NCBI GenBank assembly: GCA_937923965.1
Contig: CALDTL010000138.1
Span: 1 to 37,174 of the forward strand
From: an uncultured Caulobacterales bacterium
GTDB lineage: Bacteria > Pseudomonadota > Alphaproteobacteria > Caulobacterales > Maricaulaceae
DNA: 37,174 bases
Reading direction: 5' to 3'
The position numbers and the translations under genes were made by a program. Positions 1 to 4,863 of the stretch are shown here, piece after piece. The number at the start of each line of letters is the position of its first letter. Position 1 is the stretch's first letter. The notes beneath the pieces were generated by a model. The model had not been told where the DNA came from and ran no database searches. It saw only the letters and a program-made list of their open reading frames with translations.

Positions 1-499
1 GAAAGGCATGACGGACCATTATCCGCTCGCGGAAACGCAGCCATCCCCAGAGGAAGTGTCGCAGCGACTCCTTTATTCCCTCGTTGCCCCGTCGGCGCGC
101 ACATTTGCAGAAGGCGTTGTGCCCGACCCGCAAAGCGCAGACCTCGGCGCGATCTTCGGTCTCGGCTTCCCGCCTTATACGGGCGGGCCTCTGTCCTATA
201 TCGACACCATCGGTGCGGATGCCTATGTCGCGACATCGGATATGCTGGCGCAGCGTCACGGCGCTCGCTTTACGCCGCCGCAGCTCCTGCGGGATATGGC
301 GAAGTCCGGCAAAACGTTCTACGCCGATAGCACCCCGTCTTCGCAAAAGACCTATACGAAAAGCGCCCTAAACCGGATGCTAGAAGTCGAAGTCGTAAAA
401 ATCGCCAACGCCATGGGCATCGCCGCCAGCGTTGATGATTTAAAGGCAGATACGGTCGCGAAGATTTTAGCTGCGCAAGCGGGGAAGATCGCGGCTTAA
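1..499 (+). CDS. 3-hydroxyacyl-CoA dehydrogenase / enoyl-CoA hydratase (FadB/FadJ-type), C-terminal part, truncated by window start
   Basis: Frame is open back to the window edge; C-terminal residues (EEVSQRLLYSLVAPSA...DLGAIFGLGFPPYTGGPLSYIDTIGA) are typical of the multifunctional fatty acid oxidation alpha subunit. Confidence 0.85.
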   Translation, partial: KGMTDHYPLAETQPSPEEVSQRLLYSLVAPSARTFAEGVVPDPQSADLGAIFGLGFPPYTGGPLSYIDTIGADAYVATSDMLAQRHGARFTPPQLLRDMAKSGKTFYADSTPSSQKTYTKSALNRMLEVEVVKIANAMGIAASVDDLKADTVAKILAAQAGKIAA

Positions 500-615: not shown

Positions 616-639
616 TTATCCCTGCCTTCGCAGGGATGA
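616..639. repeat. Short REP-like palindrome
   Basis: TATCCCTG-CCTTCG-CAGGGATG; the ATCCCTG/CAGGGAT arms are the same as the outer arms of the 58-bp repeats nearby. Confidence 0.6.
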
Positions 640-675: not shown

Positions 676-733
676 CATCCCTGTCCGTTGTTTGGTGCGC
701 CAAACAACTTGAGCAGGGATCGGTGTGTTGAAC
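676..733. repeat. 58-bp nested palindrome, copy 1 (direct repeat of 1114-1171)
   Basis: CATCCCTGTCCGTTGTTTGGTGCGCCAAACAACTTGAGCAGGGATCGGTGTGTTGAAC; outer 7-bp arms ATCCCTG/CAGGGAT, inner 9-bp arms GTTGTTTGG/CCAAACAAC. Confidence 0.9.
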
Positions 734-776
734 ATCAAACAATGTCCAAAACCCCATTCAGGTAACCTCGAAACCA

Positions 777-1076
777 TCACATAAACCCGCCCGTTACCGG
801 ACAAATGGCCTGCCAATTCGGATTGCACTCCTCAATTAGCCGAATTTTCCAAGGGCGCTTCCACGCTTTCAATCGTTTCTCCCGCAAGATCGCTTCATTG
901 ATGTCGACGTAATCTTCGAACCAGACGAGGCGGTTTATACTCTTGCGCGCGGTGTAGCTCTTAGGGTCTATCTTCTGTTGATGATCAAGCAGTCGGGCTG
1001 GCAAATCCTTCGTCATGCCAATGTAAATCGCGCCATTTTTATGGCTGACCAGGATGTAAACGAAAGCGAAACTCAC
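777..1076 (-). CDS. GIY-YIG nuclease family protein (single domain)
   Basis: 99 aa; VYILVSHKNGAIYIGMTKDLPARLLDHQ carries the GIY-YIG-like core, followed by LVWFEDY and REKRLKAWKRPWKIRLIEECNPNW typical of the small UPF0213-like GIY-YIG family. Confidence 0.9.
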   Translation of the reverse strand: MSFAFVYILVSHKNGAIYIGMTKDLPARLLDHQQKIDPKSYTARKSINRLVWFEDYVDINEAILREKRLKAWKRPWKIRLIEECNPNWQAICPVTGGFM

Positions 1077-1113
1077 GTTCCATAATCAGCATTAGATCAA
1101 TTTGTGTCAAATC

Positions 1114-1171
1114 CATCCCTGTCCGTTGTTTGGTGCGCCAAACGACTTGAGCAGGGATCGGTGTGTTGAAC
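1114..1171. repeat. 58-bp nested palindrome, copy 2 (direct repeat of 676-733)
   Basis: Identical to copy 1 except CCAAACGAC in place of CCAAACAAC; same orientation. Confidence 0.9.
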
Positions 1172-1181
1172 CGAGCGCCCC

Positions 1182-4085
1182 TTACTTCTCCATTGTCTCT
1201 ATCAACTTCACCAGCTGGATAAATTCCGCGCGGTAGCCGTTTTCATCATCGCCCTTCGCGCCCTTGGCGAGCTTTATCGCGTCGGCATAGCTATAGTCTT
1301 CGACGGCCGTATCACCGCGGAGTTTCTGGCCGACGATTGAGACCGCCGTAGCGAAGCGCATGTCGTCGCTGGCGCGGCGCAGGCTCCGCTCTTGGCGCTT
1401 TCCGATGGGGAAAGTTTGAAGCGTGGAGGTGTCGGCATCCGGCAATTTATGACGGATTTTGACAAAGGCATATTCATCGGACCCCGTATTGGTCGGCGGC
1501 GTCTCCGCGACATAACGCAAGCTATCCACCGTTACCGCAGGCGATCCCACAGGCGTCATTTCATAGATCGCGGTGACGGTATGACCCGCGCCAATTTCGC
1601 CCGCATCGACCTTGTCATTATTAAAGTCCTGGCGTTTTAACGCGCGGGTTTCATATCCGATGAGGCGATATTCTGCGATGGTCGCCGGGTTGAACTCGAC
1701 CTGGATTTTGACGTCTTTGGCGATGGTAAAGAGCGCGCTGCCCGCTTCATTAGCGAGCACCTTTTGCGCCTCGGACAAGCTATCAATATAGGCCGCGACG
1801 CCGTTTCCATTTTGCGCGAGTGACTGCATGAGGTGGTCATTATAATTGCCCATCCCAAAGCCGAGTACGGAGAGGAAAATCCCGCTCTCGCGTTTCTCTT
1901 CAATGAACGTCTTCATGTCATCGGGTGACGAAAAGCCGACATTAAAGTCCCCGTCCGTCGCGAGGATCACGCGGTTCACGCCTTCATCATCAAAGTTTTC
2001 CTGCGCCTTGAGATAGGCGAGTTCGAGCCCCGCTGCGCCAGCCGTGGAGCCACCTGCCCTGAGATTATTCAGCGCTTTCAGAATATCGTCTTTATCTTTA
2101 ACGCGCGTTGGCTCCAGCACGGTTCCGCTCGCGCTCGCATAGGCCACGATGGAGACGGTGTCGTCTTCATCCAGCGTATTGAGAAGCAGCTTGAAACTAT
2201 TGATAAGCAGCGGCAATTTATTCGCTTGGTTCATCGACCCCGACGTATCAATGAGGAAAACCAAATTGCTGCGCGGCTTCTCGCTGGCGGGCGGGACATA
2301 GCCTTTGATGCCGACGTGCATCAGCTTCGTATCGGCATTCCACGGGTTGGACGTCACCGTGACATTGGCTTTGAACGGCTCATCTGCAGATTTCGGCGCG
2401 GCGTAATCATAGGGGAAATAATTGATCATTTCCTCCAGACGGATGGACGCCCGCGGCGGTAATTTTCCAGCATTAATAGACGCCCGCATGAAAGAATAGC
2501 TAGCGGTATCCACATCCACAGAGAATGTAGAGACGGGCTTTTCCGCAACCGGAGTGGGGAGGTTCGCCTTGTAAATCTCAAACGCATCGCGGTTCTCAAA
2601 TTCGCGAACAATGTTGCCATCGTCGTCGCGGAGAATATATTTTGGCGGGGCGGGCTTTGTGAAACTCGCCGTCTTATTTAAGGCTTGAGAGTCAGGCTTC
2701 CATTCTTCTCTCGCGGGTTCGATTAATACTCTTTCACTTCTTGTTTCGTATTGCGCAGGCGTGATGACGTAATCAATTCGTTCTTCCTCGATCACGACCT
2801 TGTTGATGACTTCCTCACCATTCGCGAGTTTCACAACGAAATCCTTGGTCACGGCGGGAATAGTGACTTCTTCCACTTTCTGAGGCGTGATCATCACCTG
2901 TTTTGTAACCGTCTTATACTTCGCAGGTATCAGTACTCGGCACAGGATTTCGCCTGTGTCGCTTACAAGTGTTTCCGTGGATTCAACGACCTGATTGGTC
3001 ACGCCATTAAACACCGTAAATTGACGTTTGGCGCTGGGGTCAACCGCAGCTGCAGACTGGACGATTTCAAGCGTAAGACCTCCGATTTTTTCGGCTCCGC
3101 GCGGGGCATTTTCAGGTGCCGGAGCAACGCCTGCAACAAGGGCTGGCGGCGGAGTAGGAGCAGCAAAGCTAGGTCCCGATGCAATAAAAGAATTTTGTTG
3201 GGGGGGGCGTTGGTTAAACCTTTGGGCTCGTTTGCGATTCTCAGCTTCTATCCCTACCGAATCCGACCTGATCTCATTTAATAAACTATCCACGGATCCA
3301 ATCCCGCCTTGCGGCTGCGGAATTGGTTGCGGCGCAGATGGAAGAACCTCTGACGCGATAACGGTTTGCGTCCCATCATCTCTTAATTCGATAGTTTCGC
3401 TAATGGTTTCGAATGTCGGGGGGACCGTGACGAGTTCAGTGGATGATTCTTGCACAACAACAGGTTCTGAGACTGTTTCAAAAGTGCCATCCGCTTTTTC
3501 GACGCGGCGCGTTTCTTGTTTCGTCACAGCAGGAACTGTTCTTTCAACGGTTCGAGCCGGCGTTTTCTCTACGCGCCGTTCGACAACGATTGTCTGGGGC
3601 GCTTCAGCCGATTGCGCCTTAGCAGCACCCACCGTCTGATCATCGACTGCAGAGTCCATTTCCGCGACCTCTACGGCAATCGTCGTCTCTTCCAGCGTCG
3701 ATAAATCCCCCATCACCGGAAAGACGATCAACCCCGCGATTAAGGCCGCCGCGCAGGTGCCGCCCATCATCATGGTTTGTGGTTTGAAATTTGTTAGTGC
3801 GTTAAATTTGGCCATCGTCTGTCTCCCAAAGGTCTGCACACGCGTTGTTCGTGTGGTCTGACCTGTAGGACGTGCGGCAGCCGCCGTTCCTTGGGTAGCC
3901 GGTGTATTTTTTTCTGATGTCTCTATTTTTTCAGCGGTTTTTTCAGCAGTTTTTTCGACAATTTCTTCTGAAGAAAATTCTGCGTTGAACGCCGCCATCG
4001 CCGCGTCCATCGCGCCTTGACGAGAGGGTTTAGAAGGTTTCATTTTACGCATCTCTGCTGCCAGTTTATCTAATTCATTACTCAT
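1182..4085 (-). CDS. Membrane-anchored von Willebrand factor type A (VWA) domain protein, YfbK-like
   Basis: 967 aa; cytoplasmic N-terminus, one predicted TM (MMMGGTCAAALIAGLIVFPVMG), VWA domain with MIDAS-like DTSGSMNQANK, and C-terminal region like YfbK family proteins. Confidence 0.88.
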   Translation of the reverse strand: MSNELDKLAAEMRKMKPSKPSRQGAMDAAMAAFNAEFSSEEIVEKTAEKTAEKIETSEKNTPATQGTAAAARPTGQTTRTTRVQTFGRQTMAKFNALTNFKPQTMMMGGTCAAALIAGLIVFPVMGDLSTLEETTIAVEVAEMDSAVDDQTVGAAKAQSAEAPQTIVVERRVEKTPARTVERTVPAVTKQETRRVEKADGTFETVSEPVVVQESSTELVTVPPTFETISETIELRDDGTQTVIASEVLPSAPQPIPQPQGGIGSVDSLLNEIRSDSVGIEAENRKRAQRFNQRPPQQNSFIASGPSFAAPTPPPALVAGVAPAPENAPRGAEKIGGLTLEIVQSAAAVDPSAKRQFTVFNGVTNQVVESTETLVSDTGEILCRVLIPAKYKTVTKQVMITPQKVEEVTIPAVTKDFVVKLANGEEVINKVVIEEERIDYVITPAQYETRSERVLIEPAREEWKPDSQALNKTASFTKPAPPKYILRDDDGNIVREFENRDAFEIYKANLPTPVAEKPVSTFSVDVDTASYSFMRASINAGKLPPRASIRLEEMINYFPYDYAAPKSADEPFKANVTVTSNPWNADTKLMHVGIKGYVPPASEKPRSNLVFLIDTSGSMNQANKLPLLINSFKLLLNTLDEDDTVSIVAYASASGTVLEPTRVKDKDDILKALNNLRAGGSTAGAAGLELAYLKAQENFDDEGVNRVILATDGDFNVGFSSPDDMKTFIEEKRESGIFLSVLGFGMGNYNDHLMQSLAQNGNGVAAYIDSLSEAQKVLANEAGSALFTIAKDVKIQVEFNPATIAEYRLIGYETRALKRQDFNNDKVDAGEIGAGHTVTAIYEMTPVGSPAVTVDSLRYVAETPPTNTGSDEYAFVKIRHKLPDADTSTLQTFPIGKRQERSLRRASDDMRFATAVSIVGQKLRGDTAVEDYSYADAIKLAKGAKGDDENGYRAEFIQLVKLIETMEK

Positions 4086-4710: not shown

Positions 4711-4863
4711 CATACCCCCTTCTCCCATTGGGAGAAGGTGCCGGAGCATTTTGAAAAAATGTGGAGGCGGATGAGGGGTCAGCAACTTGCTGCGACAGCC
4801 CATTACTCGAAAATCTGTCCCCTCAACCGCCCTTCGGGCACCTTCTCCCTATGGGAGAAGGAC
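4711..4863. repeat. Imperfect inverted-repeat element (MITE/REP-like)
   Basis: CCTTCTCCCATTGGGAGAAGGTGCCGGAG ... GCGGATGAGGGG on the left is mirrored by CCCCTCAACCGCCCTTCGGGCACCTTCTCCCTATGGGAGAAGG on the right; each end is itself a short palindrome. Confidence 0.8.

Follow-up and report, generated by a model that had tools for sequence, protein, structure and literature searches.

The locus described here is, in our reading (with a probability of roughly 0.68), a REPtron-like unit in which a free-standing Slx1/UPF0213-like GIY-YIG nuclease gene is bounded by cognate palindromic repeats, which the enzyme would recognise, cut and mobilise. The locus lies in a stretch of 37,174 nucleotides from an uncultured Caulobacterales bacterium, the whole of which is referred to as the window. 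Among related genes, repeats bracket the nuclease gene, the repeat arms on its two sides match and are linked to the protein subfamily, empty sites are free of repeats and, in some genomes, REPIN-like doublets are dispersed. The features of the locus are as follows:

552–1181, no strand: segment of ~630 bp that is missing from the relative G009, between flanking genes at 8–499 (plus strand) and 1182–4085 (minus strand)
618–637, minus strand: simple REP-like hairpin ATCCCTGC-CTTC-GCAGGGAT, with the tag GAG at its right end (TCTCATCCCTG on the minus strand)
676–733, plus strand: nested (two-storey) palindrome, copy 1, with outer arms 677–683/714–720, inner arms 687–695/700–708 and a TCTC tag before AT
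777–1076, minus strand: free-standing GIY-YIG nuclease gene, 99 amino acids, GTG start
1114–1171, plus strand: nested palindrome, copy 2, with outer arms 1115–1121/1152–1158 and inner arms 1125–1133/1138–1146

The initial annotation had placed two same-strand 58-bp copies around the gene, 43 bp from its stop codon (copy 1) and 37 bp from its start codon (copy 2), and both the arrangement and the spacings are correct. The copies are 57/58 identical, both with outer arms ATCCCTG/CAGGGAT and inner arms GTTGTTTGG/CCAAACAAC, and the sole mismatch, A706 versus G1144, exchanges a T-A pair for a T-G pair, such that the single difference does keep a wobble-type pair in the inner stem, as had been claimed. 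In the window, the inner 22-mer of the copies is confined to these two sites (as many matches were obtained in 0/100 shuffles), and as single-stranded DNA the two copies fold much more stably than shuffles (z of about -4.3 and -4.1). The hairpin at 618–637, which that annotation overlooked, has the same stem as the copies and the opposite orientation to copy 1, so that the left flank (618–733) is an inverted doublet with a folding z of -7.5. In the window's own genome, there are only two more copies of the 58-mer, both diverged (79 and 83% identical), and dispersal of the 618–733 doublet type was not seen. This rarity, together with the enrichment of hairpins at GIY-YIG genes given below, agrees with the earlier expectation that the repeat should not be abundant genome-wide. 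Given that the palindromes lie 37–43 bp from the start and stop codons and that hairpins could act in RNA, they might alternatively serve the GIY gene as terminators or stabilise its mRNA. We consider this the least probable of the alternatives, and a very improbable one, as same-stem repeats, be they direct or inverted, stand on both sides whatever the gene orientation, and as tags and doublets are also found elsewhere in the genome.

Homologues of the GIY-YIG protein are present in 77/100 related genomes, with up to seven per genome. We retrieved 18-kb regions around 60 homologues and scored 64 genes, with 8 bp as the minimum stem length of a hairpin. Hairpin density was 3.26/kb within 250 bp of these genes, as compared to 0.20/kb beyond 1 kb (16 times); when only intergenic DNA was considered, the near and far values were 3.56 and 0.76 (4.7 times), while CGTC-tagged hairpins gave 1.56 near and 0.18 far from the genes. 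Bracketing was defined as a repeat that both 300-bp flanks have in common and that exceeds the 99th percentile of pseudo-gene controls. Such a shared repeat brackets 45/64 GIY-YIG genes, as opposed to 0/29 ParE toxin genes and 5/210 other small ORFs, and is absent at 19/64 genes; two YhbQ-like genes likewise have no shared bracketing repeat. Bracketing was also found in other orders of the class (30/42, null 1/158) and in other classes of the phylum (6/9, null 0/36), with named records from Azospirillum, Sinorhizobium, Sphingobium, Shinella, Novosphingobium, Rhizobium, Neisseria gonorrhoeae, Aeromonas and Dokdonella. This breadth supports the analogy drawn in the initial annotation, namely a REP/RAYT-like system with a GIY-YIG enzyme in place of the Y1 transposase: the gene is flanked by matching REP palindromes, as in a REPtron, and the protein is a GIY-YIG enzyme rather than the HUH/Y1 tyrosine transposase (IS200/IS605-like) of REPtrons. 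In Azospirillum lipoferum, the bracketed gene is found between sufB and sufC. At a Planktothrix locus (L274), a GIY-YIG gene located between an MmeI-type restriction gene and the DISARM gene drmA has direct repeats of the GTCATTCTGAG type, ~96 nt long, on either side, and at L224 (1850–2420), two direct REP heterodimers lie 440 bp apart around a short ORF that is not GIY and appears SEC-C-like, possibly a passenger.

The arms of the repeats upstream and downstream of the gene agree at 8/9 positions or better in 47 of the 69 genes that are tagged on both sides. Such matches amount to 6.8% when different genomes are compared and to 18% for paralogues that share a genome; within-genome permutation gave p = 0.0008. 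Tagged repeats on both sides were found for 24/240 control ORFs, a number that reflects a loose criterion with high background, and matching arms for 0/240. Between genomes, arm and protein similarity are correlated: a Mantel test was borderline with an initial set of 30 genes (p = 0.042) and gave r = 0.21 and p = 0.0015 with the larger one. For the closest protein of a different genome, the shared fraction of the arm is 0.76, as compared to 0.58 on average. It should be considered that this co-divergence may in part reflect joint vertical descent of linked sequences. A distant second GIY-YIG subfamily (VYILRC.DGS.Y.G; L278–L288, L290–L293), chosen as a negative control, turned out to have bracketing repeats of a class of its own, a nested palindrome of the form CCTTCGA..inner hairpin..TCAGGATGA, in 12/15 loci. 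While the CGTC hairpin accompanies 69/117 genes of subfamily 1 and the other motif 2/117, subfamily 2 shows 1/15 and 12/15, respectively.

These comparisons bear on another alternative, in which REPs passively gather wherever an intergenic gap is long or a small gene is dispensable and moves horizontally. REPs are indeed intergenic, and other inserts occur at the same sites, as at the insertion-prone gatA-gatB junction (L250–L265), which holds them in four genomes (G001, G004, G007 and G015). Such hitch-hiking is, nonetheless, strongly disfavoured by the bracketing frequencies of ParE toxin genes and other small ORFs, by the lack of matching arms in all 240 control ORFs and by the double dissociation of the two GIY subfamilies.

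In the relative G009, the genes that flank the segment in the window (85 and 87% identical) are direct neighbours, and ~14 bp take the place of the window's ~630 bp; the vWA/YfbK stop codon and the terminator beside 3HCDH are ~14 bp apart there. The empty-site check that had been proposed for this locus thus yielded a gene-less relative with zero repeats, and two other loci agree. Between gatA and gatB, six genomes have a junction of 9–16 bp and three, including the window's own genome, have a GIY unit with palindromes. Beside a squalene-synthase-like gene, G010 carries a GIY type with the stem ATTACCGGG, G008, G002 and G013 carry another with the stem TCCTAGGG, and five genomes lack both gene and REP; different species thus have different GIY/REP units at this one site (L236, L239, L243, L244). 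The polarity of insertion was taken from the majority state, and no clear target-site duplication was seen by eye at the empty/filled pairs.

Homing endonucleases exist among GIY-YIG enzymes, and the gene resembles free-standing members of that group in being a selfish-looking, stand-alone nuclease gene. It might accordingly invade REP sites by cutting and homologous repair, the flanks then being the split or duplicated target, and at several loci the gene does lie between long direct repeats (100–200 bp) that are nearly identical. We regard this as improbable. The empty sites at all three loci are without any REP, such that no recognisable target persists in the empty alleles and strict homing into REPs is disfavoured; at many loci, the flanking REPs are inverted with outward tags; and, in difference from homing endonucleases, the genes have no intron or phage context, with no tblastn match to the protein in 50,697 phage records. 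A phage origin was rejected on the same search.

The ORF at 777–1076 matches PF01541 (GIY-YIG) with E = 3e-13 and no other Pfam family. Among 20 homologues, Y7, Y18, G20, R28, E66 and N85 are invariant, such that the motif tyrosines (Y7, Y18), the Arg (R28) and the Glu (E66) of the superfamily are all kept. The AlphaFold model is of moderate quality (pLDDT 74), and the nearest solved folds in a Foldseek search were UPF0213 (1zg2), the branched-DNA nuclease Slx1-Slx4 and the UvrC N-domain, with weak matches throughout (E above 0.001). These weak matches suggest that the protein is a structure-specific nuclease, as predicted from the model. The protein thus resembles the non-eukaryotic Slx1 group/UPF0213 (Dunin-Horkawicz et al. 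2006, PMC1564403) in being a small, single-domain GIY-YIG protein with 1zg2 as its best, if weak, fold match, followed by Slx1, while the genes described here differ from that group in being multi-copy, insertion-polymorphic and bracketed by repeats.

The window's own genome encodes five GIY-YIG paralogues, the other four being 47–54% identical to the window protein. Palindromes are found near all five, with different stems: ATCCCTG (window), TTGCAAG, CCTAGGG, CCTAGG/CCTCGGG and CCCAGC. One of these paralogues (L006) has an in-frame TGA and yet keeps its bracketing repeats of 98 nt (82% identical), as if decaying. The same fold matches, and the fact that REPs form strong hairpins, would also suit a housekeeping role, in which an Slx1-like structure-specific resolvase removes REP cruciforms or hairpins and is retained together with them through selection for genome maintenance rather than through mobility. 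This is unlikely, even if the least unlikely of the alternatives, since it fails to predict that each paralogue has a stem of its own, that stems follow the protein subfamily and that empty sites are free of repeats. Near-identical multi-copy GIY cassettes were sought in G221, G281, G189 and G401 and none was found, and recent multi-copy transposition was accordingly rejected. As paralogues within a genome are also mostly diverged, the GIY gene is not visibly an active transposon, and this lack of recent within-genome copies suggests a slow, RAYT-like behaviour, unlike that of an active insertion sequence.

Most repeats beside GIY genes read (C)GTC-AT-stem-loop-stem-AT-CCA and thus belong to the CGTC REP superfamily described by Di Nocera et al. 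2013 (PMC3733652). These REPs were reported from Alphaproteobacteria and Neisseriae (dRS3), S. meliloti, A. lipoferum and N. aromaticivorans among them, as repeats with no association with transposase genes and seemingly with no dedicated enzyme (PMC3733652). In the same three species, we found CGTC-type repeats bracketing GIY genes. The window copies share with CGTC REPs a stem that begins with complementary AT (ATCCCTG/CAGGGAT) and differ in being two-storey, with stems of 7 bp (outer) and 9 bp (inner) instead of a single stem of 8–9 bp with a loop of 4–5 nt; the hairpin at 618–637, with 8 bp and a loop of 4, has the expected dimensions. In place of a CGTC, TGTC or CCTC tag, copy 1 and the hairpin carry TCTC, copy 2 has lost the tag and both copies end in CGG rather than CCA, while sister nested copies carry the GTC tag (L004, L154, L156, L161 and L167) and the CCA tail (L154, L156 and L167). 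As tag and tail have drifted, the window copies are not CGTC REPs in the strict sense, and the best explanation is that the nested palindrome is a long-form variant of this superfamily. Copies within the genus share the inner stem TTGTTTG..CAAACAA and vary in the outer stem, in both of its arms (ATCCCTG/CAGGGAT, ATCCCAT/ATGGGAT, TCCCGGGT/ACCCGGGA, TCCTCGGG/CCCGAGGA, ATTCCAGC/GCTGGAAT and TCCTAGGG/CCCTAGGA); compensation in the outer stem is argued from these listed sequences, as the automatic covariation count was weakened by alignment gaps there. An Rfam search of 400–1400 gave no match above threshold, and an integron attC site was rejected on inspection by eye, as the order of the GTT/AAC ends is wrong and an integrase was not seen nearby.

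A search for the stem pattern TCCTCGG found it in 14/60 genomes. In G028 and G010, there are only two such REPs genome-wide, and both bracket the GIY gene. Of the 42 matches in G065, many are paired as inverted doublets ~80–110 bp apart. Dispersed, REPIN-like inverted doublets, with a spacing of ~80–115 bp across genomes, were found in G065, G034 and G073, the last of which has REP doublets although no GIY gene was detected. The likeness to REP/RAYT systems (REPtrons) and REPINs of the GTAG superfamily thus comprises a nuclease gene flanked by matching REPs, single or as doublets, paralogues that each have their own REP type, and dispersed inverted doublets with a short spacer. The enzymes and repeats differ, RAYTs being HUH/Y1 tyrosine transposases with GTAG-type repeats, while here a hydrolytic GIY-YIG enzyme of 99 amino acids is found with CGTC-type repeats. 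RAYTs are thought to maintain GTAG REPs and themselves in genomes, and in a REPtron-like unit the GIY-YIG enzyme may do the same for its own repeats and itself. Its substrate would be the hairpin that its own REP forms, either as a cruciform or by extrusion on single-stranded DNA; the enzyme would recognise and cut this hairpin, and the cut could start the copying or insertion of the REP, the REP doublet or the whole cassette. Spread is proposed to proceed through host repair because GIY-YIG enzymes hydrolyse DNA and, to our knowledge, have no strand-joining step.

In the open PMC literature, the scope of our search (preprints and subscription journals lying outside it), no paper tying GIY-YIG genes to REPs was found, and the link is thus provisionally considered new. 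The origin of CGTC REPs, which are common in Alphaproteobacteria, in Neisseria and in further groups, had been left open for want of an enzyme that could be connected with them (PMC3733652). With a matched nuclease, this origin becomes directly testable, a non-HUH chemistry is added to REP biology and each of the many genes annotated only as 'GIY-YIG nuclease family protein' gains a concrete hypothesis, together with a DNA substrate predicted for it. At slightly less than even odds, palindromic repeats with dedicated nucleases would form a general class, with the window element as one member, in which at least two GIY-YIG subfamilies and possibly DUF559 endonucleases each have cognate nested palindromes that are spread or maintained without a transposase.

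As for DUF559, of the seven such genes found, 6/7 have a hairpin and 6/7 are bracketed, the associated repeats being of the CTTCTCCC type; this is possibly a third nuclease/repeat pair. Repeats of the CCTTCTCCC..GGGAGAAGG type flank DUF559 endonuclease genes elsewhere (L257 at 750–1079; L052, L062, L099 and L102), and the window itself contains an inverted doublet of CCTTCTCCC..GGGAGAAGG hairpins at 4715–4861.
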